Part shown: one piece after another, positions 3,375 through 41,610 of the stretch
Layout of the letters: each line of letters begins with the position of its first letter
Position numbering within the stretch: the stretch's first letter is position 1
From: Cubamyces lactineus
Taxonomy: Eukaryota; Basidiomycota; Agaricomycetes; Polyporales; Polyporaceae
Direction of reading: 5' to 3'
DNA: 64,000 nt
NCBI GenBank assembly: GCA_022376465.1
Contig: JACDTU010000036.1
Span: 62,001-126,000, forward strand
Made by a program: the position numbers and the translations under genes
Notes under the pieces: model-generated
What the model was told of the DNA's origin: nothing
Database searches by the model: none
The model's input: only the letters and a program-made list of their open reading frames with translations

Positions 3375-3386
3375 AGACTGAAAGCT
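3375..3386 (+). other. Self-priming primer-binding site, gypsy copy 1
   Basis: AGACTGAAAGCT starts two bases after the LTR end and is the exact reverse complement of AGCTTTCAGTCT at 3195-3206, which is where transcription should start about 30 bp after the TATA box. This is the geometry known from Tf1/sushi elements, in which the mRNA 5' end folds back to prime minus-strand synthesis. No match to a tRNA 3' end was seen. Confidence 0.7.
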
Positions 3387-4274
3387 TTAACCCTCCACTT
3401 GTTAAAAGTGCAGAGGCCTACGTCGGAAGACAACGACTACGAAACGCATCAGAACTCTCTCTTGCTCGTAACGTACAGAGAGACGATAGTCAATACGGAG
3501 GGAACTACACAACCCCCATTGCGACAATCACCCAGGGTACTAGGCGGAAGGAACAAAACACTGCCGAGCTTACCACCACTCGCGATCCCGGAGAATATAG
3601 TTGCTCTCCCAAGATCGCCAGGAGGATCCCCATTCCCCTTGATAAGAGGTTTTAGCTCGACAATCCCTTACGTAGAAAGTACCAGTTCGACATCGTCGGG
3701 TCGGAGCACTCGAGTATCGGAACAAGAACCCGCGTTTCAGAGAACAGACGAGTGGAGAGAATATAGGAATTCTCTGGCCATTCAGGCGGAATCAGGAGTA
3801 GCAATAGGCGTACCCATTCCAACCCGAGCGAGTCCAGGAACGGATAGTTCGGATCGATCGACTCCAGAAACTAGTGTTGAAGAAGCATCCTCAACGGCAG
3901 GGATATTCTATCGGAGAACACAGCTTCCGGTGCACGCGATCGATACACTTCGAGTTATAGCAGATAACTTGGAAGTACTAGGACAGGAAGACTTCACGAG
4001 GAGATATCACGCGACTCTCGAACGAGCCCATCGATACATAACTCAGGTCATCCAGACACTCGAATTTATTCCAAGACAAGCTGTTACGCCTCCAACGAGG
4101 GTACGGAACTTTGCGGGATATCTTCAGAACCAGATTGACTACCTGCGAGCAAAGGTCCTCAATCCGGAGAACTACGCAGATATAGACCTCGAAGAAAATC
4201 TTAGGAAATTTCGTAGTTGCCTCCGAGCTAGGGAACTACATCAGGCTTTCCTACGACAAGCACAACGTGTATGA
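3378..4274 (+). CDS. gypsy copy 1 ORF1, ATG-less, unknown function
   Basis: The frame is open from 3345 (after a TAG at 3342) to a TGA at 4272-4274 and contains no ATG at all, about 300 codons. From the presumed cap site at 3195 to 4270 there is no ATG in any frame. I place the start tentatively at CTG 3378, which lies in the primer-binding site with A at -3; TTG 3399 is another option. The product is Ser/Thr/Pro-rich in its first half. Its C-terminal half is probably helical (NLEVLGQEDFTRRYHATLER and onward). I recognise no domain. The stop overlaps the Gag start as ATGA, so Gag may be made by leaky scanning or by termination-reinitiation. The copy 2 frame differs at only two residues, which fits a real protein. 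The start codon is inferred. Confidence 0.6.
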   Translation: MKALTLHLLKVQRPTSEDNDYETHQNSLLLVTYRETIVNTEGTTQPPLRQSPRVLGGRNKTLPSLPPLAIPENIVALPRSPGGSPFPLIRGFSSTIPYVESTSSTSSGRSTRVSEQEPAFQRTDEWREYRNSLAIQAESGVAIGVPIPTRASPGTDSSDRSTPETSVEEASSTAGIFYRRTQLPVHAIDTLRVIADNLEVLGQEDFTRRYHATLERAHRYITQVIQTLEFIPRQAVTPPTRVRNFAGYLQNQIDYLRAKVLNPENYADIDLEENLRKFRSCLRARELHQAFLRQAQRV

Positions 4275-6145
4275 GTTCAGCTGAACCATATAGTTGTTCA
4301 AGGTTATATCATCTCTACAACTCCGACAAAGCTCGGGACGTATACTATCGAGAAAGCGTAGACAAGTGGAATTTTTGCACCAACGAAAGGTGTCCACTTC
4401 GGTACAACACTAAGGAGGTTCCAAACGTCAAGCACGCATCGGCTTTAATCCTAACACACTCTTCACAAGAGCGGGATATTACTAACACCCACGGACGACA
4501 ACCCGCGTTAGTCAAGAAGCCACTACTTGCTGGAAAAGCTACTGGTCGGATTAATAGTCCGAGAGTTGTGTCAGGATCGTTTCCGACTTCAAGAGTAGGA
4601 ACCCCAAAACCTCAAGAATCCGAATCACCTAAGGAATCAGGTCCATCCTTCAAGGAGAAAGGAAAGGAGACCGAACCGCCTAAGGTAGAGGACTCGGACA
4701 AGGAGGACGAGACTTTTCGGACGACGGTCGAAGCACCTGAACCGAAAATCGAAGAAACTATTCGGATTAAGGTCGTAGTACCTGCACCGAAAACAGAAGA
4801 CACTCGGGTCGAGGCAGAAACACCTGAACCGAGAGAAGAGCATATTCAGACAGAGGTCGAGGAGACTAAATCTGAATTGGAGTATACTGGTCGCAGTGCA
4901 ACCCCAGAATTTGTACGAAAATCAGTACCATCGTACATGTCGGGAACAGCGACAGGAGAGTCCATTTCTGGAGCCCATAGATATGCGTTCACTCCGCAAG
5001 GGCAAGGCTCAGAAGGAGAAAGATACGGGTCTTTATCAAGTGGACCAGCCCCTCGGGCAACGGCAATTTCTGGAGGAGTTATCAATCCTTCTGGAGGTGG
5101 AGGAGGAGGCGGATCAGGTAGGCCCGGAGGTCGGCCTGACCCTGAGCCTTCAGATCCCTACTCCCCAGGAGGAGGACCACCAGGACCAGACCCAGACCCG
5201 GAACCGCAAGAAGCTCCAGGAAATGCGCCGCAAGGACACGGAAAGGGCAAGATCAAGGACCCTGAGGTCTTCAACGGAGACCGAGACAAAACCAGGTCCT
5301 TCCTTAATCAACTGTTCCTGTTGTTCACGGCGCGACCCCACGACTTCGTTAATGATTACACGAAGGTGGCGACGGCCCTATCCTTCATGGAAGGGGACAA
5401 TATAAACTACTGGAAGGACATCACAATTCAGCGAGCTGAAGAGGAAATTAGACCGGGAGTCTATCGAGGATTTGACTCTTGGCCGGTCTTCAAAAGGAAT
5501 TTCCTGCTCGCATTTGCCCCAGTAGACGAGGTGGACGACTCTATGGTTAATCTCACGACAATACAGCTCAAGGACTACTCTTCAGTTGATGAGTTCAATG
5601 CGAGGTTCATGGATCTAGCTCTCAAGGGAAAAATTCTGGACCCAGCAGCGCAACTGGCCCTGTACAGGAATGCGCTTCCAGAATATTTACTTAAGAAGAT
5701 ATCCATGTCGTACCCTCCGCCGACGACCATTGAAGAGTGGATGACTAGGACTAAGGAGATCGACCATAGCTATCACCTTACGGAGAAGATTTTGGCTAAT
5801 CGCAGAGGACGCAAGGCCAAAACCTCGAAGACTAGGAAGAATGTCAAGACGGTTAATATCGAGGACGACTCGCTCGATATTAACAAGCTCTCTGTCAAGG
5901 AGAGACAGGAGCTGCAAGACAAGGGACTATGTTTCCGGTGCAGGAAGCCGGGACATATTTCCAGAGACTGTCCTTCTAAACCTAAGAAGCCCGGCAAACC
6001 CGTCAGTCGGAAGGTACGACAGGTTACCGACGAGGACTTAGAGGACGAGTCTGAGGAGATCTCAGATGAAGAGGACGAAGAGGACGAAGAGGACAATATT
6101 TCTATTAACGCACTCAGGGCTACAGATTTTGAGACGGGTTTTTAG
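4271..6145 (+). CDS. gag: gypsy copy 1 Gag
   Basis: Structural protein of the retrotransposon particle, 624 residues. Its ATG at 4271 is the first ATG of the transcript and overlaps the ORF1 stop (ATGA). Residues 9-45 carry a CSxLxH...YY...C-x4-CPxRY motif that is shared with the copia element. An acidic, Pro-rich middle with imperfect 'VEAPEPKIEET' repeats follows, then a Gly-rich run. The capsid-like region (about residues 330-500) includes FNGDRDKTRSFLNQ and YWKD. A CCHC zinc knuckle CFRCRKPGHISRDC lies near residue 555, before a basic and then acidic tail. The stop TAG directly follows the slippery sequence GGGTTTT, so Pol should be made by -1 frameshifting. The Kozak context of the ATG is weak (T at -3). 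Confidence 0.9.
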   Translation: MSSAEPYSCSRLYHLYNSDKARDVYYRESVDKWNFCTNERCPLRYNTKEVPNVKHASALILTHSSQERDITNTHGRQPALVKKPLLAGKATGRINSPRVVSGSFPTSRVGTPKPQESESPKESGPSFKEKGKETEPPKVEDSDKEDETFRTTVEAPEPKIEETIRIKVVVPAPKTEDTRVEAETPEPREEHIQTEVEETKSELEYTGRSATPEFVRKSVPSYMSGTATGESISGAHRYAFTPQGQGSEGERYGSLSSGPAPRATAISGGVINPSGGGGGGGSGRPGGRPDPEPSDPYSPGGGPPGPDPDPEPQEAPGNAPQGHGKGKIKDPEVFNGDRDKTRSFLNQLFLLFTARPHDFVNDYTKVATALSFMEGDNINYWKDITIQRAEEEIRPGVYRGFDSWPVFKRNFLLAFAPVDEVDDSMVNLTTIQLKDYSSVDEFNARFMDLALKGKILDPAAQLALYRNALPEYLLKKISMSYPPPTTIEEWMTRTKEIDHSYHLTEKILANRRGRKAKTSKTRKNVKTVNIEDDSLDINKLSVKERQELQDKGLCFRCRKPGHISRDCPSKPKKPGKPVSRKVRQVTDEDLEDESEEISDEEDEEDEEDNISINALRATDFETGF

Positions 6146-9100
6146 GCAGGCAAGCAGACACGACGCCTGACTTGCCCAAGGAACTGCATGTAACTATTGT
6201 AACCAATACAGAGCGGAGACGCAGTGCTCTGCTGATACCCGGTTACATGCAGGTTCAGGACAAAGCCGTCGAAATCAAGGGGCTCATCGACACTGGTGCG
6301 GATGCCGTGATCGTCAATAAAAAGATTGTGGACAAGTACAATCTTCCGACAGTCAGACTACCGAAGACTCTGACTTTCCGGAACGCGGACGATAGCGTTA
6401 ATAGCATGGGAACCATTACCCATCGGGTGGAGGGGACATTTAATCTACACGGGAAGAAGCTCCCAACAAATTGGTATGTGGCCGACATTGGGCGGGACGA
6501 TGTCTTATTCGGCATGCCATGGATCCGCAAGTACAATCCTAATATCGACTGGGAAAGTGGACGCATTACTTTCAAGTCGGATATTATCAAGAAGCAGCAG
6601 CAGATCCATAAATACCAATGCGAGCACGACCCACCCGAAGGGATGCTGTGGAATTTCCCAGTAAAACCTCAAAATTAAGATCTGGTCGTATCGTTCGTAC
6701 GTGCTATACCGGACGAGGACGACGCAGACCCAGACTCTGAAAGGCTTACATTTAATCCTTCGAGGGCCATCGAGCTATGGTACCGCAGGAAGAAAATCCG
6801 AAAGATTAATAAGTCTACGGAGATAGCTATAGCAGCAAAGAAAGACCAGAAGGAGAAGACCTTGGACGAAATCCTACCTGATTTTGTAAAGGACTATCGA
6901 CAGGTCTTTGAGAAAAAGGCAGCAAGTAGATTTCCGCCCTCGAGACCATGGGACCATGCTATCGAATTCAAGAAGGATTTCGACCATCATACCAAAGGGT
7001 CTTGGAGGAAAATCTACCCTCTGACCTATACGGAACGTATAGAACTCGATAAATTCATTGCGGAGAACCTCGAGAAGGGCTACATTCGAAAATCCAAGTC
7101 TCCACTAGCCTCGCCATTTTTCTTTGTCACCAAGAAGGATGGGAGTCTTCGACCTGTTCAAGACTACAGGGCTCTTAACGAGGGGACTATCAAAAACGCA
7201 TATCCCTTGCCGCTCATTAGCGACATCATTGACCGGCTGAAGGGGGCCACAATATTCACCAAACTCGACGTGCGAGCAGGGTACAATAATGTTCGCATCA
7301 AGGAGGGCGATGAGTGGAAAGCTGCGTTTATAACACCCAGCGGATTGTTCGAACCAACAGTCATGTTTTTTGGTCTGTGCAATGCACCGGCCACATTCCA
7401 GAACATGATGAACGACCTCTTCCGAGACATGCTCCAGGAAGGATGGATGGTCATTTACATGGACGACATCCTAATATTCTCAGACAATGTCAAGGATCAC
7501 CACGAACGCACGCGAAGAGCTTTAAAGCGACTTCAAGACAGTGATCTATTCCTTAAGGCGGAAAAATGCGAATTCGACAGACAAGAAGTCGAATTCCTAG
7601 GATCAATAATTCGGCCAGGGGTAGTCGCTATGGATCCAGTAAAGCTCAAGGCAATTATCGAGTGGGAACCACCGAAAACAGTCAAGCAGGTTCAGGCATT
7701 CCTAGGGTTTGGTAATTTCTACCGACGGTTCATTCGGGATTATTCAAAGATAGTCCGACCCCTCACGGAATTAACCAAGAAGGACCAGCCTTTTCTGTGG
7801 ACCCCTGATTGTCAGAAAGCATTCGACACACTCAAGAAGCGGTTTACTGAAGAACCGATCCTGCAAATCCCGGATCCGGAGAAACCATTTCAGATTGAGT
7901 GCGATGCTTCTAAAGTCGCAACAGGTGCTGTACTACGACAGCAAGGAGAGGACGGACTATGGCATCCTTGTGCCTATTTGTCCAAGTCCTTTACTCCTGC
8001 AGAACGGAACTATCAGATTTATGATAGGGAATTGTTGGCCATTGTTCGAGCTCTCGAAGCGTGGCGGCATTTTTTGCAGGGCTCCCCACACCCTACAGAA
8101 ATTCTATCAGATCACAAAAATCTGACCTATTTCCGTACGGCGCAGAAGTTAAATCGCAGACAGGCGCGATGGCATTTATTCCTCTCGGAATTCAACATCG
8201 TAATCAAGCACCAACCCGGAAAATCCCTCACTCAAGCAGACGCCCTTTCTCGGAGATCAGGGCATGACGGGGGGGAAAATGACAATAAGGACGTCGTATT
8301 ATTAGGGCCAGAACTTTTTGCCAAAGCTGTCAACGTTGAGCTACAAGAGCGCATCCGTGATAGCAAGCTACGGGACAACTCGGTAGTAGAGTACATTACT
8401 CTAAAAGGAAAGGCTACCAAACGCCCAGAGTTCGGCAAACCAGAAGATTGGTCCGACGACGACGGAATACTCCTGTACAAGAACAGGGTATACGTTCCAC
8501 CAGATAATCAATTGTATCGTGATATAGTCAAGATGCATCACGACGCACCAATTATGGGACACCCAGGAGTCCAGAAAACCTACGATCTGGTTAAACGGGA
8601 ATATATGTGGCCAGGCATGCGGAAATTCATTGTGCAATACGTCAAAGGTTGCGCCGCTTGCCAAACAAGCAAGGTCAATACGCATCCCATTAAATCAGGC
8701 TTAATTCCCATTCAACACAGTGGGGATACTAGGCCTTTTCGGACAATTACCATGGATTATATCACGGATCTACCAGAGTCGGATGGATTTAATGCCATTC
8801 AAGTGGTAGTCGACCATGATGTATCCAAGGCAGCAGTATTTTCCCCTTGCACCAAGAATATTACGGCTGAAGGAGCCATGGATATTCTGCAAAGGGATGT
8901 ATATCGCAGATTCGGACTACCCGCGAAGGTCATCTCGGATCGAGGACCGCAATTCATCTCCAAGGCATTCAAAGAATTACACAACAGCCTCGGAATTGAA
9001 ACGGCACTCAGCACGGCCTACCATCCTCAGACAGATGGGGAAACGGAGCGAGTAAATCAAGAACTCGACTTAGCACTTCGGCTCTACTGTGCTAATAATC

Positions 9101-9795
9101 CGGAGAACTGGGCCAAACTGCTGCCTCAATTCGAATTCGCGCACAATCAGCGGACACACTCTGTCACGGGAAAATCCCCGTTTGAGCTACTCTACGGGTT
9201 TCAGCCAGAGGCCGTTGGGACAGTCCGAACAACCCCAAAGCATCCAAGTACGGAGCAGAGGCTTCAAAGTCTTCAGGAAGCCAGGGAGAATACAATAGCG
9301 GCGCATGCGCAGGCCGCCGCAGCTATGTCAAGAAGGCTCCCCGCTGCGCAAGTTCCGCTGAAGCTCGGAGACAAGGTTCTTCTCGATACAAAGAACCTCA
9401 GGCTTCCATATGTCTCCAGGAAGTTGATTCCAAAACGAGTGGGACCGTTCACCATCGTCAAGGTCTTGGGACCGGTTACATTTAAGTTAAAGCTTCCGGA
9501 GAAATGGAAGATACACCCCGTCTTCCACGCAGCGCTACTTACCCCGTACCACACAACTAAGGAGCACGGACCAGACTATGTCCGACCTCCACCGATTCCC
9601 ACTCCTGAATCAACTGAAGGAGAGGAATGGGAGGTAGAAGCAATTCTGAGCCACCGTACTAGAGGTACCCAAAAGCAGTATCTAGTGGCTTGGAAGGGCT
9701 GGCCCGCATCGGAAAATTCTTGGGAACCAGAAAGACATCTCAAGAACGCGCAGTCGATCTTGCGCAACTATAAGAAGAGGCACAAGTTGTCGTGA
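6133..9795 (+). pseudogene. pol: gypsy copy 1 Pol, interrupted by one nonsense codon
   Basis: Polyprotein read in the -1 frame of Gag. In order it carries an aspartic protease (LIDTGADAVIV), reverse transcriptase (YMDDILIFSD), RNase H (IECDASKVATGAVL) and the integrase zinc-binding segment (HHDAPIMGHPGVQ...CAACQTSK). The integrase core follows (TMDYITDLP, VISDRGPQF, then HPQTDGETERVNQ), then a C-terminal chromodomain (WEVEAILSHR...YLVAWKGWP...SWEPE). A TAA at 6676-6678 replaces the CAA found in copy 2, between protease and RT; the frame is otherwise open on both sides. This copy therefore cannot make a complete Gag-Pol by itself. The chromodomain is known in the family to direct integration to marked chromatin. 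Confidence 0.92.
6136..6176 (+). promoter_or_regulatory. -1 ribosomal frameshift site, gag-pol
   Basis: G GGT TTT (6136-6142) fits the X XXY YYZ slippery rule in the Gag frame and is followed at once by the Gag stop TAG (6143-6145). Pol lies exactly in the -1 frame, open from 6133, and has no usable ATG near its start. Six bases after the heptamer, GGCAAG (6149-6154) can pair with CTTGCC (6171-6176) to give a hairpin at a suitable distance. Copy 2 keeps the heptamer and the stem, with one change in the loop. Confidence 0.7.
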
Positions 9796-9862: not shown

Positions 9863-11158
9863 ATGGTCTACACCAACACTCGTCTTACTGGTCGTCGTTT
9901 CTCTGAGGCGACTCGTCGCAACATTCCCCGTCCCCCCAACTTCATTAGGGCACGGCGCACTGTTTTCTACAACCATCTTCCCCGACACACCGTCTCGTGC
10001 AACGACGAGGGCACCCTCGCCGATCGTGTCGGCTGGGTCATCGTGCACCCCGACCTCTACAGCCATGTCGAGGCCCGTATTGCCCATCTTCCTGAGGTCA
10101 AGGACCTCATCGACGTCTACCGCGCTCTCGCCAGGGCCGCCCCCTCTTACTCTGTTCTCATCAAACACAACCAGAGAACGTCGGCGCCCAAGTCCGAGAA
10201 GAAGAAGGTAGTTCAAGTTGCGAGCGAGGCCTATCAGGCAGTGGTTCAAGCGGCAGAGAAAGTAATTTCTATGCTCGCTAACCCTCAGGTCGCGGGAGCA
10301 CTCTCGGACCTGATGCCCCTGCGTAACCAACACGGTACGCATAGTTGGGGGCATGTCTTTTGGCCGCAACGCCTCGATGACTACCCGCAAGCTATCGAGG
10401 TCGATTCTTCGGATGAGGAAGAAGACGAGGACGAGGTACGCTCGGATGGTGGATGGTCCATTCCCTCGACTGACCCTTGGAAGGTTTCCACTCCTGATCC
10501 TGAGGAGGAAGCCATCAAATGGGGTCCGACTTCAGTTGAGGGGTCGACCCCGACCCTATCCTCCTCAAGTTCTGACTCCTCCTATTCGGAAGTCGAGTCT
10601 TTCGACTTACTCCCTGAGCTCGAACAACTAGAGCTTAGCACGATCGACGAGCTCTCGGAAGAGGAGTTCCACGAAGCCCTGAAAGTCGCAGTAAGGGCCC
10701 CTTCCCCGCCTCCTCCTCCCCCGACTACGATCACCAAGCACGTCGAGGAACCCCATGGACGATGCGGTTTCTTTCGTGGAACCGGAGAAGATCGGTTCGG
10801 ATACATCAACTCTCGAGGCGACATTTTCATGGTCCCCAACAGTTCCTTCGGCATCTCTGACGTTCGGATCATGGTCGCATACCATCTCCGATGGCCGGAA
10901 GCTTCAGTCAGGACCACCCAAGCCGCCTCCCTACTCATCGACGATGTCATCGCCCGGCGTGGAAATTACCCCGCCTTCAAGGTCGACGCTGAACGCATCG
11001 CGACTACTTATCGCGAGGCTTTAGGCATGTCGGCGGCAGAGACTGCTCAATGGGACTGCATTCGAGCAGTAGGTAGCGATGCGGAGCTCGTCCAGATCTC
11101 CCTGGATGTCTTCCGTCCTGAGGTCGTCGAGAGAAACAATGCTATCGTTCACCTCTAA
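9863..11158 (+). CDS. gypsy copy 1 ORF3, unknown acidic protein
   Basis: 431 residues, starting at the first ATG after the pol stop, with a good context (A at -3, G at +4). It sits where an env gene would lie but shows no signal peptide or membrane segment. The N-terminal part (about 1-170) begins MVYTNTRLTGRRFSEATRR. The middle is highly acidic and Ser-rich (SSDEEEDEDEV; SSSSSDSSYSEVES), followed by a Pro run. The C-terminal block (about 300-431, from HGRCGFFRGTGEDRFGYI) is the best conserved between the two copies. About 29 of 430 residues differ from copy 2, with the frame kept. I recognise no family. It must need reinitiation, splicing or a separate transcript for expression. Confidence 0.75.
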   Translation: MVYTNTRLTGRRFSEATRRNIPRPPNFIRARRTVFYNHLPRHTVSCNDEGTLADRVGWVIVHPDLYSHVEARIAHLPEVKDLIDVYRALARAAPSYSVLIKHNQRTSAPKSEKKKVVQVASEAYQAVVQAAEKVISMLANPQVAGALSDLMPLRNQHGTHSWGHVFWPQRLDDYPQAIEVDSSDEEEDEDEVRSDGGWSIPSTDPWKVSTPDPEEEAIKWGPTSVEGSTPTLSSSSSDSSYSEVESFDLLPELEQLELSTIDELSEEEFHEALKVAVRAPSPPPPPPTTITKHVEEPHGRCGFFRGTGEDRFGYINSRGDIFMVPNSSFGISDVRIMVAYHLRWPEASVRTTQAASLLIDDVIARRGNYPAFKVDAERIATTYREALGMSAAETAQWDCIRAVGSDAELVQISLDVFRPEVVERNNAIVHL

Positions 11159-12328: not shown

Positions 12329-15300
12329 CTAGCTCTGGCTGCCGTCTACACAGACATAGACGTAATGGCATGCGCGAGAGCTCCTTGCGTGAGTCAGGTC
12401 CACAGCAGCAATGGAAGAGTATTCTGGCGAACAGAAATGACCCTCTCGTGCACTGTCATGGTACCATACTGCTCCGTCGGGCGCAATGTATCATGCAGTG
12501 AAGTGAGCAAAGCCGTGATAAATAACACCACGCAAGTGCCATTGGTAAGGACGACCATTGACGGAGAGCGTGAGGACAGAAACAGGGTAAACAGATTCCG
12601 TAACGTGGCTAACCTCGAGGCATATCAAAGGCGGCGGTGAGTGTACAGTGGTGCTAATCTCAACAGACGTACGACAGTCGGGGCAGTGTATGTCCGCAGT
12701 TGACGTGAGAAGGTGATCTATAACACTTTGTGACGTAGATACGATTTCCTCTGTCGATGCGGGCATAACAGTTGGACACCATAAGTAAGAAGACATTAAG
12801 TCTGTTTCTCGCTGAACAACAGTGCTGCAAGATGTACAGAATCCTTGGGAACTAGCGAACGCGCGTGGGCATCTGAACAGTTCATGCAATACATCGGATA
12901 CTGCTGCAGTGACAAACCCGCGTCGAGGAAATAACTCAGGATTGAGGATACTCAGGGTATCCCGTATAGAGTCCCGCACAGACTCGAGGTTAGTACAAGG
13001 AACAGGCAAGTTATTCAATCGAGAGACAAGCTGCCGTGCAACAACGTTATCTGTCGGGAGTTGTTCCAGCCATGGTGCGCCCAGATCAACCCGGAGGTTC
13101 CACATAATGGTCAAAATGGCATCATAAGCACAACTCCAGTCTGTAGCATCCCATAGAAGACCCTGCCGTATTGCGCAACGACTAGTAGTGCCAGACTGTG
13201 GGTGAGAGAAAACCGCTTCTGAGGACATGCATACACGCTTACAATCAGGCATTGCAGGTACCCATACCTCATCAAGACGTGTTCGTTTTCGGGATTCTCG
13301 GGGCTTCATTGCATGCCGTTGTAGTGCAGGTGCATCGGCAGAGACTTTGGACATTCTGGAGCGGTAGCTATCATAAAACCGGGACCATTGTAATGCCTTG
13401 TCGGCTCGCGGGGGATGTACCCAGCTGGGAGAATGCATAGGTAGCTCGGAATCAACTCCGAGCGTGAAGTTCCCTGCACAGAGAGAGGTAGGGTCCCCTC
13501 GACACTACGTGAGGAGATATCATCGAGTAACTCCAATTCACAGAATTCATTCAGCAGTGCAGGAAAAGCACCGCAAGTAATTTTCGAAGCATCAAGACCT
13601 TCAATAATCACTGTCTGCAACAGGGAACTGCTCCTAGAAAGAGCAGTATATAATGACTGATGATTCCGACAATACTTAGGATGCACAACATTGCGGGCTC
13701 TAGTAAGACCCTGACAAGCATAATCTGTGAGGGCGAAGTTCTGCAAACAAGGTACTTGTTCGCGAACAACACTGACAGTAATATCACCTACGGGAAGAGT
13801 GCATCGTACGCTACGTTTTTGACGAGTGATGGGAACAACATTTGGCGGAAGGCCAGCTATCTGAACAGGTTCAGAGGGATTCGCTAATCGCACGAAGAGA
13901 ACATCAAGCACTTCCACACCAGATGCAGTACAGTGCGACTCCCAACCAGCAACAAAGCCAGGTGCACCATTTGTTGCAGAGAGCTCCGTGGCTTCGTTTG
14001 CCTTGAGCAATACTGGCATCTCTTCACATAACGCTAGGATTCCCGCATGATGTCCACATAGCGATGGCGTAAGCGACCACAATGCATGTTGAAGACGAGC
14101 ACCAATTTTGTTGCTGGTCTGAACGGGATCAGAAACGGCAGTGTATTCTTTCTGAGCGCGTCATATGGATACGGAGTCTTTCACCCTCCCCCAGGTGTCA
14201 AAGGAATGGAAATAGTGGAGCGGACGATGCTCCACAGCGGCAAAGCGCTCAGCTTGTTCGTCGTTAATGGCATCTCGGTGGGAGTTACGAGCTGTGATAA
14301 TCGAAACATCCTCAAATCCTTGCAAAGACATGACCGGTCCTGCCATGTCCGAAGCAAACACACGGCTACGAAGAACATGCAGGTCCACCGGTGTGCAGGA
14401 AGCATAGCGCATGTTAGCTAACGCAACACGAAATGCATTGTCCTCTTCGGACATGCCGCGCTGCCGCATGTTCTCACGGAGAATAACAACGGTGGTGAAT
14501 GTCTGCCAGATAGCCTTTCCAAGAGCAGCATTCTGCCCGATTTTAGTGACCCCACTTTCCGAAGCTCCCACGGAGCTACTATACAGTGAGTGTCCATTTC
14601 CGGGGGGGGACAGCTGAGCAAAGTCACCGGCTAAAATTATACTTTTCCCGCCAAAAGAAACTGACACCTTTCCGAACGCTTTAGTGAGGGCAATGTATAT
14701 CCGCAACAGTTCTTCGCACGAAATCATAGAGACCTCATCAATAAATATCAAATCAACTCCCTTTAATCGTCCCCGAATTGCCTCCAACGTTGACTGAGAA
14801 AAACTTCCATCGCTCTCAAAGCCAAAGCCAAGAACAGAGTGATATGTACTGCCGCCCAGCTGTGATGCAGATGTACCTGTCGGTCCAAGTACAAGAAACC
14901 GGTAACCTTCTTCTCTTGCAATGAGAAATTCCATGACAGATTGAATGACTCGCGTTTTACCAGTCCCTCCCATCCCCCCCAGGTACATGTGCAGTGGATC
15001 AGGATCATGATGATGAAGGTGTTTGGCAACAAGCACAAACGCACGAGTCTGCTCGACATTCAAAGTGAAGTATTCTATTGTACTATGCAGTAGTTTGAGA
15101 TGCAAATCTTGGATTTCTGCTTGAATGTCAATGCCTCCACGAAACAATCTCTCCAGCTCTGCCTTTGTTACTATAGCGATAAGTGGGATACGAGAGCAGC
15201 ATGGAACCGGATGACTTCCAACAGGCCCAGCATTAGTGTTAGGTGCTGGAGGCTGGACTTTGGCCACCCGCACAACACGTACAAGGTTTTTAGCATCACT

Positions 15301-15811
15301 AACAGCACTTTTCCATGAGGAAGGTGATTGCGAGAGAAAGCCCCCCACGGAGTAAACACTAGAAGCTGTTGGCTGAAACAATGTGACAACAGGTTTAGAT
15401 GGGAGGATACGAGACAGAAGGCTGGTCATATTCTGCATGTCTGCAGCATGTTTAGCTGCAATCTTACCCATTGCTGCATCAGGATCATCGAGGTAGTCCA
15501 CAAGGGTGGAGTCTGCAAAGCTTTCTTCATCAGGATCAGGCACATCGTCAACAGAAGAACTTGCCCCAAACACCAACGGAATGTTATCGATAGCGCCTTG
15601 TCTACGTAAAGAGGAATAATCATCACGTGCATCACGACACTCATACAGAACATTCATATTACACATTATACGTTTATGCTCTGCAGAAAATGAACAGTTG
15701 TCATAGGCCTCAGACCAAGAAACTGCATCACCACGTAGGTCAGCACCTGACCTCCAGCCATGCGGTGAAAACAGAACAAGCATTACACAGCAATATTCTT
15801 CATGGTCCCCA
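12329..15811 (-). pseudogene. Helitron RepHel, helicase and C-terminal peptidase-like part
   Basis: C-terminal block of the rolling-circle transposase. A Pif1-type SF1 helicase is clear: Walker A GGMGGTGKT (14953-14979), Walker B FIDEVSMIS, then QNFALTDYACQGLT and YTALSRSSSL near the end. After it comes a domain with WDATDWSCAYDAILTIMWN and, near the end, YHGFAHFTA followed by a YIAPDGAVWYHDSA segment. This looks like a cysteine-peptidase (ubiquitin hydrolase-like) tail as found in basidiomycete Helitrons, with the Cys of WSCAYD and the His of YHGF as candidate catalytic residues. Breaks: TGA at 14161-14163, a frameshift in a C-run near 13408-13413, and TGA at 12491-12493; the true end is TAG at 12329-12331. 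Both TGA codons stand where Arg (CGA) is plausible. Confidence 0.88.
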
Positions 15812-16351
15812 TGACGAACTTCTGAACCTGGAAGGCTGGGGAGCGACCTGTAAGCGACACAAAGAGAGTCTTCAGTCTGTGAGCGAACGACTCTATTGCA
15901 TAGTACAAGTACCTGTAAGCGACACAAAGAGAGCTACAAGTACTTGGTAAGTAACTGCATATAAAGGCATAGGTAATGAAGGAACTTACTCTTCAGTCTG
16001 TGAGCGAACGACTGAAGAGTAGGGGCGAACAATGTCCTCCTTATATACTGAGAGAGGAGTGCCATGAGTAAGCGAAGAAAGGAGGCATGTGATCGCTATG
16101 TACGATGAGTAAGACCATGGTGCGAGTATCGCAACATATGGTGTCATAGATATAGAACCCTCTGGAAGGATCCGTAGCAGTGTAGAACGCAACGGAAAGA
16201 TGGAGGGAATGAAAGAATGTCTAACTACAGTACGTATGCTGAGCAGTCCGTAAAAGGAAGGAACAAAGTCCATGCTGTGCGCGTTGTAGGCGCCACAGCC
16301 ACAAGGTCCACATTCCTGGTCCGGCACAGCCGATAACCTGGAAGTTCAACA
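15812..16351 (-). repeat. 3' LTR of copia element
   Basis: Read on the minus strand it starts TGTTGAACTTCC and ends AGAAGTTCGTCA (TG...CA). A polypurine tract GAGTGGGAG abuts it at 16352-16360. Confidence 0.93.
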
Positions 16352-16362: not shown

Positions 16363-19300
16363 TCAAACTGCGGAGGGAGAGACTAGACCAATCGCCTTTC
16401 TGAAGCGCTCCAATATAGAGAAGGAGACATTCTTCGTCAAGGAATCAGCTAGTTGATCCTCTGTCGCTATGTAGAAGATGTCGATCGTCCCTAACTCAGC
16501 TTGTTCGCGAGTGTAGTGGTACTGGACGTCGACGTGCTTCGTGCGACGCTCGGTGACAGGATTAACCGATAAGAAGATGGACCCTTGGTTGTCAAGACAC
16601 AAGGGTGTAGGACGAGAGATGTCGTCCCCCAACTCTTCACCAAACGTGCGAAGCCATACAACTTGACGACAAGCATCTGACGCAGTCTTGTATTCCGCCT
16701 CGGTCGAGGAGAGCGAAACAGTCGGCTGTTTCCTAGACTGCCAGGAAATAGCGCCGCCCGCCATCAAGAAGACGTAAGCTCCAGTGGACCTGCGGTCATC
16801 TCGGTCCTCAGCCCAGTCTGAGTCTGAATAACCCAAAAGACCGTCATTTGAGGAACCGAAGTAACGCAACCGGTAGTCTTTGGTCCCTTGCAGGTACCGC
16901 AGAACATACTTGGCATAGTTCCAGTGTGCGTCACTAGGATTAGAGTTGTACTGAGACAACTTCTGGACCGCGAAGGAGATATCCGGACGTGTACCCAAAG
17001 TCGCGTAGAGCAGACTGCCAATTAGGCTCTGGTACCGTTTCCGGGAGTGATCGGCAGCGGTGTGACTAGATTTCTCCAGTACAGCACCAGCAGGGAGAGG
17101 AGTGCGAGCCGGCTTGCAGTCGGCCATGTCGAAACGTTCGAGAACGGACTGGATGTAGTCTATCTGGTCGATGTCGATCGTTCGAGCTTTACGATCGCGA
17201 ACAATGTTCAGACCAAGAAAACGCGAGACAGGACCCAGATCCGTCATCTTGAACCGCTGCATCAAGGCCTCCTTGGTATCCTTGATATGGCCAGGCTTGT
17301 CACCCATAAGGAGTAGATCGTCGACATACAGAACGATGATCGTGACGGAATCCCCCCTATGTCGCCGATATACGTAGACTCCGGCATCAGAGTATGTCCG
17401 TATAAATCCCAGATCTAGCAAGATTTGGTGTATCTTGGCGTTCCATTGGCGAGACGCCTGCTTCAAGCCGTAGATCGCTTTCAGCAATAGACACATGAAG
17501 TTTTCCTTGCCAGGAACAACCCAGCCCTCAGGCTGTTCCATGTAGATCTCCTCCTCCAAGTCGCCGTTCAAGAACGCAGTTTTGACGTCCATCGACTCGA
17601 TGTCCCAGTCCTCAAGCGCAGCATGCGCGAGGAGGTAACGAATTGACTCAAAACGCGCAACAGGCGAAAAGGTTTCGTTGTAATCCTCCCCCCAGACCTG
17701 AGTAAAACCCTTGGCCACAAGACGAGCCTTATACCGACCATCATGCTTGATGTCATACACCCAACGATTGGCGACGACTTGTCGGTTCTTTGGCCTAGGC
17801 ACAAGAAGCCAGGTCTTGTTCTCAATGAGTGAGTCGTACTCTGCTTTCTCAGCTGCATGCCACTTCTCCACGTCTGGAGATGCCATGGCTTGTCGATGAG
17901 AGTTAGGAATGCCAGGCTTATGGGTTGCGGCAGCGAGCATTGCAATGATAGACTGTACAACTTGTTCATCGCCCTCCAAGTTTCCTTCCGCATCTGTACG
18001 AGCATCAACCTTTGCAGGTGGCTCATCACCGTACATGCTGTCCCTATAGCGCTGAGGTCTAGGAACATTTTCGCGACGAGGGCGATCACGCGCTATGCTA
18101 GGACCTCCCACTGGCTCATGACGATTCCGCTGATGGTTAGGCCGCGGTGGAGGAACAGCAGGTGGTGGATCAGGTTGTTGCGGAGGAGGGGGAGCAGGTT
18201 GCTCTGGAGGTGCAGGAAGCGCAGGAGGTGCGGCCTCCGGGAGAGGAATAGGAAGAGGGATATCGATCTCGAAGTTTTCAGGCTCAGCATTGGAGGCATC
18301 GTCTGAAGGGACTTCTTGATCTGAGAACGGACTATCGTCTGGGGTAACAGGACGATTGCCAGGAATCTTGCGTGCAGGAAAAGACTCTTCGTCGAAGATC
18401 ACATCGCGAGATACGACGATAGAGTGGGTGGCTGGATTCCAGAATTTATACCCCTTGGAACCCTGCTCATACCCGACAAAGATCATCTCGACAGCCTTCT
18501 TGTCGAGTTTCCCTTTGCGCTTGTCCTTTTGCACGTGAACGTAGGCTTTGCAGCCAAACACGCGGAAATAGGACACATCAGGGATGGTCCCATCCCACAG
18601 AGTGATGGGGCATCGCCATTTCAGGCGACGCATAGGCTGACGATTGTAGATATGAACGGCTGCCTCAATAGCGAGTTGCCAGAAACCGTGACTAAGTCCA
18701 GCGTGGTGAAGCATAGACAGAGCCTTCTCAGTGATTGTACGGTTCCAGCGTTCAGCGCGTCCATTTTGCTGAGGCGAATCAGGCATGGTTTTGTGGTGCT
18801 CAATCCCTAGACTGCGGAGAAGCTCAGAGAACTCGTTTGACGTGTACTCCCCACCACGATCAGAGCGGACTCGCTTGATTTTCCTCCCGGTTTGATTCTC
18901 GGCCCAAGCCTTGAAGTCCTTGAACACTTTGAAGGCGTCCGACTTGTACTTCAGGAAATAAGCACGGGCGAGACTGGAGTAGTCATCGATGAAGCTAGCG
19001 AAGTACTTGAATCTGCTGCCAACTGACGCAGTGCACATTGGCCCATCAAGATCAGTGTGGACTAGCTCAAGGGGCTCAGTCGCACGCTTTTCTGACGGCG
19101 GGAAAGGGAGTCTGTGGGATTTGCCAAAGGCACAACCCTCACACGGTTCATCATCCGCGGGATCAAGCTGATCAACACCCTTTACGTTCTTAGGCAGGTG
19201 GCGAAGAGGCTCCTTGCCTGCATGACCAAAGCGACGATGCCAGGTCTTGTAACTGCGAACGTTTAGGTGGACGTGCCTGTTCAGGATAATCTCCAGAGTC

Positions 19301-20628
19301 AAATCATAGAGATTGCTCGCAGGATTGTACGGTGCCTCAAGGATCTTTCGACCCTTGATGCGAATCGTCGAGCCTGAGTTGACAGCGCCTTCCGGCTGCT
19401 TGTCGAAGATCATCATCTTCCTCGCTCCTTGGAAGAGAGAATAACCATTCTTCTCAATGGTACCGGTGGAGAACAGTTGTGCAGAGGCCTGAGGCACATA
19501 GCAGACGTTCGGAAGAGTGATAGTCCACCGTTGTCCATCGACAAGAGTCTCAGCTTTAACAGTGCCTTGACCGAGTCCCTGAATAACCGAACCTTCGCCA
19601 GATGAGGCAGTATTGAAGGTCAGTGGTTTGTCAAAGGGTTCGTACTCGGTGAAGTCGTCAAAGCACCAAGTGACGTGCTGAGATGCGCCAGAGTCCATCA
19701 GCCAACGAGTATACCGCACACCAGCAGCAGCTTTCGCCGCATCATAGAAAGAAGCGTGCATGTTAGAGCCGGATTCAGCTACAAGTACATTGGCCGAGAC
19801 GTGCGCATGGTCATGAGAATTGTCCTTTCCCTTCCCTTTATCCTTGTCCTTGTCCTTGTCCTTCTTCTTGCCACCGTTGCCCTTACCCTTGTTGCCCTTG
19901 GGGCGAAGCTCGGGGTGCTTCTTGTAGCAAGTCGACTCATGATGGGTCTGACTGCCACAGAAGTCGCAGGGGCCGGACGGCTTGGGCTTGGTCTTGGAGA
20001 TCCGAGCAGCGGACTGACCGGTCTTGCGCATGGCTTCCTCAGAAAGAGACTTCTCGAGGATGACGTCGACGGTGATCTTGTCGAGGTCCATAGTGGCCAT
20101 GAGCGCAGAGATCATAGGTCGGTAGGACTCCGGGACCTTGGAGAGAAGGATGAGGGCCTGGATGTTGTCCTCTAACTTCAGGCCGTTGGTCGAGATCTCG
20201 CGGATATGCGTGACGATCCGACTCATCTGATCCTGAAGCGAACGCTGGTCCGACATGCGAGACTCGCTGATGAGCGATTCAAAGAGACCCCAAACGTGCG
20301 CAGAGTTTGGTTTCCCAAACTTGTCTTTCAGCGCATCCCACATTTCTTTGGCAGTGAGATTGGCCGGAGAGGAGGTGCCGTTGGTCGTCTTCGTCTCGAG
20401 GAGATAGTGGAAGCTAGGCCCAGTCCGCATGAAGAGCAGACCGCAAGCCTGAGCATTCTTCTTCTTATACTCCTTGCGCTCTTCAGCGTCGGTAGGTTCA
20501 GTCGTCTCCGAAGAGACTACATCCCAGTAGTTCATGAACATTAGGAGACCCTTCATCTTCGCAGCCCAGTCGGCGTACTGGCTGGCCGAAGAAAGGAGAG
20601 GGACGGATTCAGGTTTGATGTCGCCCAT
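16363..20628 (-). CDS. copia Gag-Pol polyprotein
   Basis: 1421 residues from the first in-frame ATG (20628). The order is a UBN2-type Gag (MWDALKDKFGKPNSAHVWGL), a CCHC knuckle CDFCGSQTHHESTC, a Lys/Asp/Gly-rich linker and an aspartic protease (LMDSGASQHVT). Next come the integrase HHCC segment (HRRFGHAG...CEGCAFGKSH) and the integrase core (HTDLDGP; VRSDRGGEY; SPQQNGRAERWNR). A Pro-rich linker, RT (LYVDDLLLMGD) and RNase H (SLSSTEAEYKTAS...WLR) complete it. No frameshift or stop is visible, so this copy could be active. The frame stays open upstream to 21090 without an ATG (see the separate entry), so the real N terminus may be longer by about 150 residues. Confidence 0.93.
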   Translation of the reverse strand: MGDIKPESVPLLSSASQYADWAAKMKGLLMFMNYWDVVSSETTEPTDAEERKEYKKKNAQACGLLFMRTGPSFHYLLETKTTNGTSSPANLTAKEMWDALKDKFGKPNSAHVWGLFESLISESRMSDQRSLQDQMSRIVTHIREISTNGLKLEDNIQALILLSKVPESYRPMISALMATMDLDKITVDVILEKSLSEEAMRKTGQSAARISKTKPKPSGPCDFCGSQTHHESTCYKKHPELRPKGNKGKGNGGKKKDKDKDKDKGKGKDNSHDHAHVSANVLVAESGSNMHASFYDAAKAAAGVRYTRWLMDSGASQHVTWCFDDFTEYEPFDKPLTFNTASSGEGSVIQGLGQGTVKAETLVDGQRWTITLPNVCYVPQASAQLFSTGTIEKNGYSLFQGARKMMIFDKQPEGAVNSGSTIRIKGRKILEAPYNPASNLYDLTLEIILNRHVHLNVRSYKTWHRRFGHAGKEPLRHLPKNVKGVDQLDPADDEPCEGCAFGKSHRLPFPPSEKRATEPLELVHTDLDGPMCTASVGSRFKYFASFIDDYSSLARAYFLKYKSDAFKVFKDFKAWAENQTGRKIKRVRSDRGGEYTSNEFSELLRSLGIEHHKTMPDSPQQNGRAERWNRTITEKALSMLHHAGLSHGFWQLAIEAAVHIYNRQPMRRLKWRCPITLWDGTIPDVSYFRVFGCKAYVHVQKDKRKGKLDKKAVEMIFVGYEQGSKGYKFWNPATHSIVVSRDVIFDEESFPARKIPGNRPVTPDDSPFSDQEVPSDDASNAEPENFEIDIPLPIPLPEAAPPALPAPPEQPAPPPPQQPDPPPAVPPPRPNHQRNRHEPVGGPSIARDRPRRENVPRPQRYRDSMYGDEPPAKVDARTDAEGNLEGDEQVVQSIIAMLAAATHKPGIPNSHRQAMASPDVEKWHAAEKAEYDSLIENKTWLLVPRPKNRQVVANRWVYDIKHDGRYKARLVAKGFTQVWGEDYNETFSPVARFESIRYLLAHAALEDWDIESMDVKTAFLNGDLEEEIYMEQPEGWVVPGKENFMCLLLKAIYGLKQASRQWNAKIHQILLDLGFIRTYSDAGVYVYRRHRGDSVTIIVLYVDDLLLMGDKPGHIKDTKEALMQRFKMTDLGPVSRFLGLNIVRDRKARTIDIDQIDYIQSVLERFDMADCKPARTPLPAGAVLEKSSHTAADHSRKRYQSLIGSLLYATLGTRPDISFAVQKLSQYNSNPSDAHWNYAKYVLRYLQGTKDYRLRYFGSSNDGLLGYSDSDWAEDRDDRRSTGAYVFLMAGGAISWQSRKQPTVSLSSTEAEYKTASDACRQVVWLRTFGEELGDDISRPTPLCLDNQGSIFLSVNPVTERRTKHVDVQYHYTREQAELGTIDIFYIATEDQLADSLTKNVSFSILERFRKAIGLVSPSAV

Positions 20629-21090
20629 AGTGAGGAGAAAGAATTGGGGCGAATCGATGAGGTTCTCGGTGAGATCGAGTGTAGGAAGTGGAGATTGTGG
20701 AGGCGCGAATTGGAGAGGCGCGTCCGGAGGAAGGAGTGTGGGAGCAAGGAGAGGTGAAAGCTCGTAGACTGATTCTAGGTCTTCTTCTTCTTCTGCCGAA
20801 GAAGGAGGAAGCGGAGTAACTTGCCAAGGTTCTGGGACTACAGCCCAGAGGTTACCGGGTGGAGGCTCTTGAAGGTTCTGGTAGCGATTAGGGCAGGGGA
20901 AGCTATCGCAAGCAAAGTAGCTGTCGTCTTCTGGGTCGTAGTAACGATCGAGGTTCTCGTCGACGTCGAAGAAGTGGATAAGCCCAGAACAATCAAAGGC
21001 AGATGATTCCGAAGGGTTGTCGAGAGTGGCGTCGACTTCCTCCTCAGAATCTATGGCAAGAGGTTCCGCTGTGGTCGGCTCCAAAACGGT
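20629..21090 (-). CDS. ATG-less in-frame N-terminal extension of copia Gag
   Basis: 154 codons continuous with Gag and free of ATG, opening after a TGA at 21091-21093. There is no ATG in any minus-strand frame from 21593 down to 20629. TTG at 21084 with G at -3 and +4 is a plausible near-cognate start. The translation is acidic and Pro-rich. It contains FDCSGLIHFF...YY...ACDSFPCPNRY (20881-20991), which aligns without gaps with residues 9-45 of the gypsy Gag in this window (14 of 37 identical, including C, H, C and C). That shared motif is the best evidence that the extension is translated. Intron-mediated joining to another start cannot be excluded. Confidence 0.5.
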
Positions 21091-21581: not shown

Positions 21582-21600
21582 GAGCGCAGGGCTCATAACC
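21582..21600 (-). other. Primer-binding site for half tRNA-iMet (copia)
   Basis: Directly after the 5' LTR the minus strand reads GGTTATGAGCCCTGCGCTC. This is complementary to the anticodon stem-loop of initiator tRNA-Met (...GCGCAGGGCUCAUAACC...), not to a tRNA 3' end. Drosophila copia and yeast Ty5 are known to prime from such an internally cleaved tRNA-iMet. The CAU anticodon puts an ATG into the leader (21596-21594), opening a five-codon uORF that ends in TAA. Confidence 0.75.
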
Positions 21601-22140
21601 TGACGAACTTCTGAACCTGGAAGGCTGGGGAGCGACCTGTAAGCGACACAAAGAGAGTCTTCAGTCTGTGAGCGAACGACTCTATTGCATAGTACAAGTA
21701 CCTGTAAGCGACACAAAGAGAGCTACAAGTACTTGGTAAGTAACTGCATATAAAGGCATAGGTAATGAAGGAACTTACTCTTCAGTCTGTGAGCGAACGA
21801 CTGAAGAGTAGGGGCGAACAATGTCCTCCTTATATACTGAGAGAGGAGTGCCATGAGTAAGCGAAGAAAGGAGGCATGTGATCGCTATGTACGATGAGTA
21901 AGACCATGGTGCGAGTATCGCAACATATGGTGTCATAGATATAGAACCCTCTGGAAGGATCCGTAGCAGTGTAGAACGCAACGGAAAGATGGAGGGAATG
22001 AAAGAATGTCTAACTACAGTACGTATGCTGAGCAGTCCGTAAAAGGAAGGAACAAAGTCCATGCTGTGCGCGTTGTAGGCGCCACAGCCACAAGGTCCAC
22101 ATTCCCGGTCCGGCACAGCCGATAACCTGGAAGTTCAACA
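21601..22140 (-). repeat. 5' LTR of copia element
   Basis: 540 bp, TGTTGAAC...TTCGTCA on the minus strand. A TATATAAGG box is read on the minus strand near 21828-21836. One base differs from the 3' LTR. Confidence 0.93.
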
Positions 22141-30422: not shown

Positions 30423-30781
30423 GGTTCAGCGGAGAAGGCTTCTCGCGCGACGTCTGTTGTCATTCACCCTGCCTCCATCCGTACACGCTCTCTTCCATTC
30501 AAATTCCTAATTCATATCATTTCGAGTACCCGGATAGCGTAGTGATGAGCAGACTGGTACCGTGCTACTACCAAAACACTCCAAACAGCAAGCGCGCTCA
30601 ATGTAACTAGTGCCCTGATGACTGCTACATGTTCTGTTCCCTCAAGGACGCTACAAGACTGCCCTTGCCAGCTCACAACACTCCAGAGCTCGAGGCTCTT
30701 CGATGTGCATCTATGTAGGCCCGTGCGATGCCCATGACTGGGATGGACTTGCAAGCACTTCCGTCCCTGGGACCCGCGCCT

Positions 30782-33277
30782 AATCCATGCACGTCTTTGC
30801 GGATTTTGCTGATGGGAGTTCAAGTCCGGGGAGGGTCGCTGAAGGGTGCTCATAGCGGCATCGTCAATAAGTAGCTGGGGCTTACCGCAAACCACACGGC
30901 CTCTGACGACACGTTCCACACCTGGGCGTTCCCATTGCTCTTCTAGAGCTTCTGCAGTTGCAGAAAAAAAATCGCCTGTGTGAACAGAATCAAGCCAGCA
31001 CAAGAGAGCGTCCCGAAAGCCTAAATCTGCAAGAACTTTGTCCCGTAGTTCCTGAGGAGATGGACAGCCTTCGATCCAGATAAGCAAATGGAGGTGGAGT
31101 GTCTTGCGTCCCTGTTCTTCCACTGTGCCATAATATGCGGAAGTCTTGCCAAATATACCACAACGATCAGTCGCGGTCCCGAGCAATACTTGAAGAAGAA
31201 GGTCTACCATACGATGAAAAAACCGGGCCGCACCGACTGGATTTGAGGCAACGGCACGTACGCGGTCAGACTTGGATCGAAGAGAGGGATATGCAGCTGA
31301 CAGGTCCACGGTCTCACCACAGAAGTGTAAACAGAGTGGATTCTTCGTGTCGGCGGGTGCGAAGGTCACGAAAAATACTGGGACTCCCCGCGTGTAAATA
31401 AGGGAATGTATTTCGTTCCGCTGGAATTTACGTCGGGCGTTGCTACCCTGTATATTCCCTGACACATGGTCAAGAAGATGCATAAGTTCAAAACAACGTG
31501 TTTCCGCATCGGACTGTGCTTGTATGTGACTACCATCCTCTGAGCGGGCAATAATGGCATCAAGCGCGAGGGGATCGAGAGAGAGAATTTTATCGGCGAC
31601 ATCACGGAAATTACTACATTTTGTAAGTAAGTACCCGCTTGCAGTACCGTTCCGTACCTGAGAATGACTGAAAGCCACATAGGAAAAAGACCGATCAAAC
31701 TGGAACCGACGATCTCCGAAAACGAGGCAAGCTCTAAGGTGAGGAACACGATCTAGCCGACGAACAATGCGTGCATTCTCAAACCCTCCTACACCATAAG
31801 GAAACAGCCAAGGATACATGCCCGGGTACAGGGACTCATTGTGGTACATTGTCTCTGGCCGAGAATGATGCCCGACAGCGAGCGCGCTCCCACCTTCTTT
31901 GAAATAGCGTACCGCGAATGCAAGGCGCTGCGAGTACGTCATGTGTGCGAGGTCAGGCGCACTTAGGCAATGAAGCATAAAAGGACAGGAATCTGTGTCG
32001 TCTGCAGCAAAGGGCTCTTCGATATCATGGACGGCCAGATTAGGTTCTGCATCGAGGTCGGACGTCGTTTCTCGATGTACGACATGTACAGGTGGTAAGT
32101 CATCATCGTACTCGGTCAAGTTAGACCTAGAAATAGTAACATCACGATAATGAGCATGATTCAGTTTCAACCATCGAAGTGCCGACATCACAACGCGGTG
32201 ACGAATAATGAAAGGAGTCCGTTTATAGTCATCATTAGTAGGTTTGACAGGCCCTGAAAAAATGAGTGCGAAGCATTCATCCAGCTCTTGTCGAGGGGGA
32301 GGTAGAACATCATAGGTGCGCAACGTCGGCTGCTCAAACACTATCGCATTGGCTCTCAACTTTCCCTGGCCGCCTTTGACGTGAGCAACACAATAGTTTC
32401 GCCGGAAGCGTGCAATAAGGAGCTCCTCACCGAATGTCAGGTCACGCAGTACAGTAGGCACATCACCAATCCATCGCCCGTTGGCAAGCGACAGAGGAGG
32501 CAGGGCATTCTTGCAGAGCGACGAATGACATCGGTTACATATATACATGACGCACTCACCATCGCGAACAAACACAGATTGCGAATATAAAACAGGGCCA
32601 GGCACCTCAGTGTCGACAGGATCGGTGTCAGAAAAACGTTCAGCACGGGTGACACCATGACCTGAGCGATCTAGAGGTGAGAGGTTGATATCACAAACAG
32701 CTCAAACAAGGACATCGCTACGGGCAGTAAGACAAGCGCAAACAGCGCAGGGAACTTCATAAACGGATTCAGACGACAGGGCATCATGCCAACGCTGAAG
32801 AAATCGAGACTCATCAGCGACAGACAAAGGCAAGGGCGGAAACGTGGGTGTTGTAGAAGGCAGCACGGACGATGAGATGGCAGGTAGCGAGGACGATGGA
32901 ACACCACCAAAGACGACATCAGGCATGAATTCAAACACGGATAGAAAAGAGGGACAATTATTACATGTATGAGCGGCCAGGCACGCGGACAAAGTGGATG
33001 CAGTGCGCGTCGAACGGCCTGTAGGCACGCTGTGAGCGAGAGCGAGAGCACGCAAATCACGCAGCAGAAGATGCGGCGCGAGGACAGACAGAGGGACATG
33101 TGCAGTAACAAGGGATGGACTGCCGACGCACAGAGCATGGGCATCCGACGAAAGACGATGAGCGACAAAACGTACGCTCCCACGGATGGCAGGACTGATG
33201 ACGGCGCCAAAATCGCGCAACACATCGACGCACAGAGGCCGTGAACGAGGACCGGAAGCAGCGCGCATTTCTGACAT
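30782..33277 (-). pseudogene. Helitron RepHel, N-terminal part with HUH motif
   Basis: First part of the Helitron transposase, from ATG 33277 (MSEMRAASGPRSR). An N-terminal segment contains CAVCACLTARSD and, after the break, CNRCHSSLCKNALPPLSLANG, a Cys-rich motif typical of these proteins. The Helitron N-like region follows (ESLYPGMYPWLFPYGVGGFE; RGVPVFFVTFAPAD), then the nuclease HUH motif GRKTLHLHLLIWIEG. Breaks: an in-frame TGA at 32702-32704 near residue 190, and a frame change near 30800-30850 just before the Plavaka insertion. The continuation is at 23413. Confidence 0.85.
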
Positions 33278-35110: not shown

Positions 35111-35112
35111 TT

Positions 35113-41533: not shown

Positions 41534-41610
41534 AAGACTCAACCCACTGCCCACTCGAACATTTCCTCGAATATTCTCAGATTTTCCAAACAATTTTTCA
41601 TACTCTCACA

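Follow-up and report, generated by a model that had tools for sequence, protein, structure and literature searches.

Gypsy and copia retrotransposons of Cubamyces lactineus share an N-terminal Cys/His module in Gag and have AUG-poor leaders

Unrelated classes of retroelement in bdelloid rotifers have ORF3 genes in common, which has been explained by gene sharing (PMC5408684). Murine leukemia virus is known to encode an extended Gag in its leader (PMC5778647), and this gammaretroviral glyco-Gag, an in-frame N-terminal extension of Gag started at a CUG codon, is well studied (PMC5778647, PMC5120145). In a fungal host gene, Neurospora CPC1, a long leader is open in the main frame and has near-cognate codons able to start translation (PMC5487733). 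We analysed 64,000 nucleotides of the polypore Cubamyces lactineus (contig JACDTU010000036.1, positions 62,001 to 126,000; hereafter the window), which hold two copies of one chromodomain gypsy element, with one copia element, on the minus strand, lying between the two. Both kinds of element carry a small Cys/His module at the N-terminus of Gag.

The rotifer elements resemble this case in having one protein unit in unrelated retroelement classes, and are the nearest precedent for sharing. They differ in that whole ORF3s, several of them enzymatic, are found there (PMC5408684), rather than a 45-residue N-terminal domain of Gag across Ty1/copia and Ty3/gypsy. Both glyco-Gag and the copia frame described below are in-frame, leader-encoded extensions ahead of the Gag AUG (PMC5778647, PMC5120145), but the copia extension is a predicted product, contains the Cys/His module and has no known membrane role or envelope. 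CPC1 is similar in its long, open fungal leader with near-cognate codons; as described in its source (PMC5487733), it encodes a host transcription factor and involves no retroelement.

The Cys/His module and its relatives

The three copies of the module in the window are as follows.

4295 to 4405, plus strand: module of gypsy element 1 (Gag residues 9 to 45), inside the ATG-started open reading frame (ORF) 4271 to 6145
36033 to 36143, plus strand: module of gypsy element 2, inside ORF 36009 to 37883, with the same protein letters as element 1
20881 to 20991, minus strand: module of the copia element (residues 32 to 68 of the predicted ORF 16363 to 21084), from translation

The module follows the pattern C-x4-H-x21-C-x4-C over 33 residues. 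In both Gags the order is module, low-complexity linker, superfamily-specific capsid domain and Cys/His knuckle. The initial annotation had aligned the gypsy and copia copies with 14 of 37 positions identical, and its coordinates and residue numbers are right; a by-eye count on the translations gave the same number of identities. Its placement of the copia copy is right, but it did not give the strand, which is minus; the plus-strand translation at 20881 to 20991 is unrelated to the module. The two Gags are otherwise unrelated, as it had said: one has a weak Retrotrans_gag match and a CCHC knuckle, the other Retrotran_gag_2. Reverse transcriptase, RNase H, integrase and chromodomain, in that order, make the gypsy element a Ty3/gypsy chromovirus, and Retrotran_gag_2 with integrase before RVT_2 makes the other a Ty1/copia element.

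The host assembly (36.3 Mb, 43 contigs) was searched in six frames with phmmer, and the places found were assigned to element families by score, part of the loci being fetched. A 52-residue gypsy piece found 116 places: 61 identical copies, 14 places of a second gypsy family, B (67 to 81% identity), 4 fragments and, at E values of 3.6e-4 to 0.011, 37 places of the copia family in the window, copia A. The reverse search with a 56-residue copia piece gave 114 places, comprising the 37 of copia A, 2 of a second family, copia B (41 and 43% identical), 1 copia fragment and 74 gypsy places (E 2.8e-4 to 0.24). A copia-B piece found 39 places, its own 2 and the 37 of copia A (E 3e-6 to 9e-5). A profile of six gypsy modules scored copia A at 21.1 bits and copia B at 15.5, and hhalign aligned the gypsy and copia profiles over 45 columns with a probability of 96% and, for this one comparison, an E value of 2.9e-9. 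A loose DNA pattern for the module was uninformative, with 4700 forward matches in the genome and 4318 in a backward control. Overall, the protein comparisons support the presence of one homologous module in two superfamilies of long terminal repeat (LTR) retrotransposons.

The initial annotation had proposed a profile search as a check, and further members with all four ligands were indeed found. The element proteins matched proteins of Trametes cubensis and C. lactineus. With the Gag capsid part as query, 14 proteins matched, and 12 were examined (all but P0007 and P0008). An N-terminal module with C, H, C and C is present in six (P0002, P0003, P0011, P0012, P0013 and P0014); the other six (P0005, P0006, P0009, P0010, P0015 and P0016) are uninformative, as these models begin further in or with other sequence. 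The N-terminal 110 residues of the copia protein matched one protein, P0004 of C. lactineus, a chitin synthase gene model that ends in the copia extension with its module and reflects either an insertion or a falsely joined model.

The module is absent from the other LTR families that were sampled in the genome, which are few. It was not found in the roughly 1.2 kb that precede the Gag domain in six other copia loci, apparently of different families, and in two loci of another gypsy family, nor by a profile search of these eight loci, a small sample, at E up to 5. Regular-expression matches occurred only in L082 and L083, in a non-Gag frame and across a stop codon; L083, one of the two gypsy loci, apparently contains a copia LTR and was not counted. 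Two scans of viral contigs, with the module alignment and with the Gag capsid part, gave nothing confirmed.

The statement that no named domain has this pattern held up, in that Pfam lists 0 families at E up to 10 when the three modules are searched in isolation. The CCHC zinc knuckle (PF00098) is likewise a small Cys/His module in Gag, but it reads C-x2-C-x4-H-x4-C, covers 18 residues and follows the capsid, whereas the present module has another spacing, is N-terminal and has no match to PF00098. Nor is it the integrase H2C2 domain (PF17921 or PF09337), for which the element's match sits in Pol and the three modules have none. The N-terminal zinc ribbon of RPB9 has a pair spacing of 2, as against 4 with one His here, and was absent from the matches of a sequence search of the PDB. 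Sequence searches of the PDB returned chance-level lines only, an antibody chain (E 3.4) and a chain named At4g05400 (E 0.86), both taken as chance. For its "CT...CP-R" the module was also compared with the WRKY and FLYWCH domains; neither was listed by Pfam or the PDB search, and the idea was dropped. In searches of an open-access library, which lacks most subscription papers, we found no description of the module and no report of a small structural domain common to both LTR superfamilies.

All four proposed ligands are invariant in the eight family representatives, and in an eleven-row alignment (A4) the invariant residues are C9, H14, D23, C36, C41, P42 and P51. R44 is also invariant in the eight representatives if copia B is represented by L061; it is lost in L062. 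Ten family-B gypsy loci were translated, and seven keep all four ligands. Zinc binding by the module, for which this invariance speaks, is putative: C, H, C and C would hold one zinc ion and stabilize a small three-stranded sheet, zinc-ribbon-like at most.

Ratios of nonsynonymous to synonymous substitution (dN/dS, Nei-Gojobori) between gypsy A and six family-B copies are 0.215, 0.253, 0.231, 0.219, 0.361 and 0.215 in the module and 0.315 to 0.407 in the linker; capsid ratios of several B rows are meaningless through decay and frameshifts, the proportion of nonsynonymous differences (pN) exceeding 0.5 in two rows. Between copia A and copia B, dN/dS is 0.381 in the extension, 0.158 in the first 300 Gag codons and 0.343 in the later part. 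These data support purifying selection on the module.

AUG-poor leaders and neighboring features

Ahead of the Gag AUG, both elements have a conserved open frame that lacks AUG, which the initial annotation had not mentioned. The parts concerned are as follows.

3399 to 4274, plus strand: ORF1 of gypsy element 1, 291 codons without Met; 3399, a TTG, is the predicted start
4271 to 6145, plus strand: Gag ORF of gypsy element 1, with the module, a Pro/Gly/Glu-rich linker, a Retrotrans_gag-like stretch (391 to 469, under the curated cut-off) and a CCHC knuckle (553 to 569)
35137 to 36012, plus strand: ORF1 of gypsy element 2, predicted start TTG
36009 to 37883, plus strand: Gag ORF of gypsy element 2, from translation
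20629 to 21090, minus strand: extension without AUG, open in the frame of copia Gag, between an in-frame stop at 21093 and the Gag ATG at 20628, with the module and an acidic Pro-rich linker
16363 to 20628, minus strand: copia Gag-Pol from the Gag ATG, with Retrotran_gag_2, integrase and RVT_2
21601 to 22140, minus strand: copia 5' LTR, limits by eye and approximate; the 3' LTR is at about 15812 to 16351

In gypsy element 1 the 891 bases from LTR to Gag (leader 3380 to 4274) contain zero ATGs in any frame, and the TGA of ORF1 overlaps the ATG of Gag as ATGA. Dinucleotide shuffles of this leader have a mean of 5.4 ATGs, and none of 1000 lacked them; shuffles of codons that keep the ORF1 protein have a mean of 4.1 out-of-frame ATGs, with 0.2% of 2000 free of them. 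The counterpart leader in element 2 (35115 to 36012) is likewise free of ATGs in all frames and has the same conserved, Met-free ORF1 and ATGA at the start of Gag; other in-frame near-cognate codons there include CTG at 35116 and ACG at 35158. Among 30 gypsy-A loci, 29 have no ATG in the 1107 to 1109 bases from a TATA-like box to Gag (the 30th lacks the search string), but these copies are near-identical and thus are not independent events. ORF1 has dN/dS of 0.329, 0.403 and 0.342 against three B copies, and in L066 its first ATG stands at the position of an ACG in L069 and family A.

The simplest reading suggested by the ORF1 sequences is that translation of ORF1 starts at a near-cognate codon and that the Gag AUG is reached by leaky scanning. 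The gypsy module itself is on every AUG-started Gag, the AUG-less frame being the one that precedes Gag. A splice-acceptor start for ORF1 was also considered; the phase past an acceptor-like site differs between A and B (one base fewer in B, two B copies), which argues weakly against it. If transcription starts past the TATA-like box, splicing could give no AUG to ORF1, because no ATG lies between the box and Gag.

The copia frame from 21090 to 20628 is free of stops and of ATGs before the Gag ATG. No in-frame ATG precedes the latter, and translation of the extension is inferred: the copia module would be made only on an N-terminally extended Gag, via a non-AUG start or a spliced message, beside plain Gag from the AUG at 20628. 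As in glyco-Gag, an ATG-free open frame precedes the Gag AUG, shares its reading frame and is conserved as protein, with the extension dN/dS given above; this ratio also led us to set aside an untranslated leader. Near-cognate codons in frame within the first 25 codons are TTG at 21084 and ATA at 21054. Across a 962-base leader stretch the Gag ATG is the only ATG, against a mean of 6.0 in dinucleotide shuffles, of which 0.7% have one or none. Just outside that stretch lies the sole other ATG between LTR end and Gag, at 21596, in a primer-binding-site-like sequence that follows the 5' LTR at 21600 and presumably matches half of the initiator tRNA. Within the LTR, past a TATA-like box (21836), there are three more ATGs at 21759, 21749 and 21690. 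The copia-B extension (919 to 1392 of L062) is also open and ATG-free, and its partly readable leader has one ATG further up in the same frame, separated from the extension by stops.

The 3' part of the copia LTR (21600 to 21778, minus strand) has a GTAAGT donor-like site and two acceptor-like copies of CTTTGTGTCGCTTACAG; splicing from the donor to the second CTTTGTGTCGCTTACAG copy would remove the three LTR ATGs.

Other features of gypsy element 2 are as follows.

34569 to 35114, plus strand: 5' LTR; 543 of 546 positions are identical to the 3' LTR at 42936 to 43481
37910 to 41533, plus strand: Pol, with protease, reverse transcriptase, RNase H, integrase and chromodomain (Pfam)
41530 to 42903, plus strand: 3' accessory ORF of 457 codons, without a Pfam match

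The 3' ORF follows Pol in both gypsy copies. In element 2 it overlaps the Pol stop by 4 bases, and its relative in element 1 is at 9863 to 11158. Pol of element 1 (6172 to 9795) is in two open frames, that of element 2 in one. The copia element is flanked by a PIF1-like helicase on one side and by DUF6570 with Helitron_like_N on the other (12491 to 15927 and 30512 to 32605, minus strand), and appears to be nested in a Helitron. A repeat-like open frame at 604 to 1302 has repeated "TMYNTPT"-like units, with two frames open.

Homology, possible exchange and proposed function

We favor, with a probability of about 0.6, the reading that the module is one homologous domain of about 45 residues, held by zinc, binding a protein and gained by exchange between retroelements. 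The domain (C-x4-H ... D ... C-x4-C-P) would stand at the Gag N-terminus in two lineages of polypore fungi, one of Ty3/gypsy elements with a chromodomain and one of Ty1/copia elements, and the copia lineage, or both lineages, would have acquired it by exchange between retroelements of the same nucleus. At the end of a long low-complexity linker, it would bind a protein partner, either a host factor or another Gag. A number of observations weigh against this reading. In its own genome the copia-B piece found no gypsy place and so does not help the gypsy link, and when the copia-A extension was shuffled 20,000 times, the top shuffle scored 15.0 bits against the gypsy profile (the next, 5.6), close to the 15.5 of copia B. 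The copia lineage is known from one genome and P0004, the latter probably from contig C23 of that same genome. Synonymous sites of copia are almost saturated, with dS above 1, and over the 41 copia module codons the proportion of synonymous differences (pS) is 0.75, from which dS is incomputable. Two family-B gypsy loci, L065 and L067, each lack one ligand (both are decayed copies with stops further on, present in alignment A1 but left out of A2 and A4), and L073 breaks off within the module. Structure models of the module are of modest confidence (mean predicted local distance difference test scores of 69.1 and 60.6), Foldseek against the PDB and BFVD found no match at E 0.001 or better, and a plain three-strand meander could put C/H, before strand 1, and C/C, after strand 3, at opposite ends. 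Family-B gypsy leaders, partly decayed, are less clean: over the 782 to 1031 bases before Gag, six loci have 1, 2, 12, 0, 6 and 1 ATGs; the locus with 12 has different sequence upstream of Gag. Finally, copia A and B also agree well in the leader DNA upstream of the extension, so that the case against an untranslated leader is made by the codon pattern alone.

The module is short, single-sequence E values genome-wide are mostly near 1e-3 and one shuffle nearly equals copia B, all of which would fit unrelated Cys/His-rich stretches that merely align by convergence or chance. We nevertheless consider this very improbable: the profile score of copia A is well above all 20,000 shuffles, and conservation exceeds the ligands (D23, P42, R44 and P51 in 8 of 8 rows; Y26, W33 and Y45 in 7 of 8). 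Gypsy A and copia A, moreover, align without gaps, copia B has one gap of two residues, and the module has the same place in both Gags, the N-terminus ahead of a low-complexity linker. At the level of sequence, then, the module is a real, homologous and so far unnamed part of Gag, and fits the known theme of parts shared among retroelements. Each lineage might instead have captured it independently, without direct exchange, the source being a host gene or a third element. Copia and gypsy modules share 10 to 15 identities in 44 to 46 positions, fewer than the 26 to 37 of 46 within the gypsy group, and their leaders have no notable nucleotide similarity (the best blastn hit, E 0.099, is an inverted 18-base match). 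However, low similarity is also expected from an old exchange, and own-genome searches with three queries at E up to 10 brought out no host gene that contains the module; we think independent capture unlikely, though well worth keeping in mind.

Gag zinc fingers usually bind nucleic acid, and the six gypsy modules are weakly basic (net charge +2 to +3), so the module could aid packaging of element RNA as CCHC knuckles do. The two copia modules are acidic (-9 and -4), which weakens the RNA-binding role raised in the initial annotation, and in both Gags a knuckle already follows the capsid (PF00098 in gypsy; C-x2-C-x4-H-x4-C in the copia translation); we regard this role as distinctly improbable. 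Since surface charge is opposite in gypsy and copia while the core is kept, we favor a protein-binding surface on a zinc-held core. What had been observed is confirmed, and its interpretation partly supported. As for how the copia extension is made, a spliced message joining an AUG exon in the LTR would have the GTAAGT donor-like site at 21778 and the three LTR ATGs available past the TATA-like box. An acceptor-like CACAG, conserved as YACAG, also lies where the open frame begins, and the residue at which the P0004 model passes into the extension fits this acceptor. But P0004, fused to chitin synthase, is a gene model rather than a transcript, and in gypsy ORF1 the 29 loci are ATG-free from the TATA-like box, about 1.1 kb before Gag, to Gag itself. 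We regard splicing as an unlikely but serious alternative to a non-AUG start.

A wider proposal, which we make only tentatively, is that a zinc-stabilized Gag "cap" may be a mobile accessory passing between polypore Ty1/copia and Ty3/gypsy elements, and that both may use selected, AUG-poor leaders from which near-cognate starts, together with leaky scanning, would yield a second, leader-encoded product: an extended Gag in copia and ORF1 in gypsy. This would be a counterpart of glyco-Gag, and could tie both elements to one host partner.

AUG-free leaders of this kind are a simple, testable case of leader coding in retroelements, and one that would be missed by gene finders that look for ATG. 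Gag is regarded as having been invented separately in the two great LTR superfamilies, and a part kept by both lineages suggests a contact in the fungal cell that is common to them.
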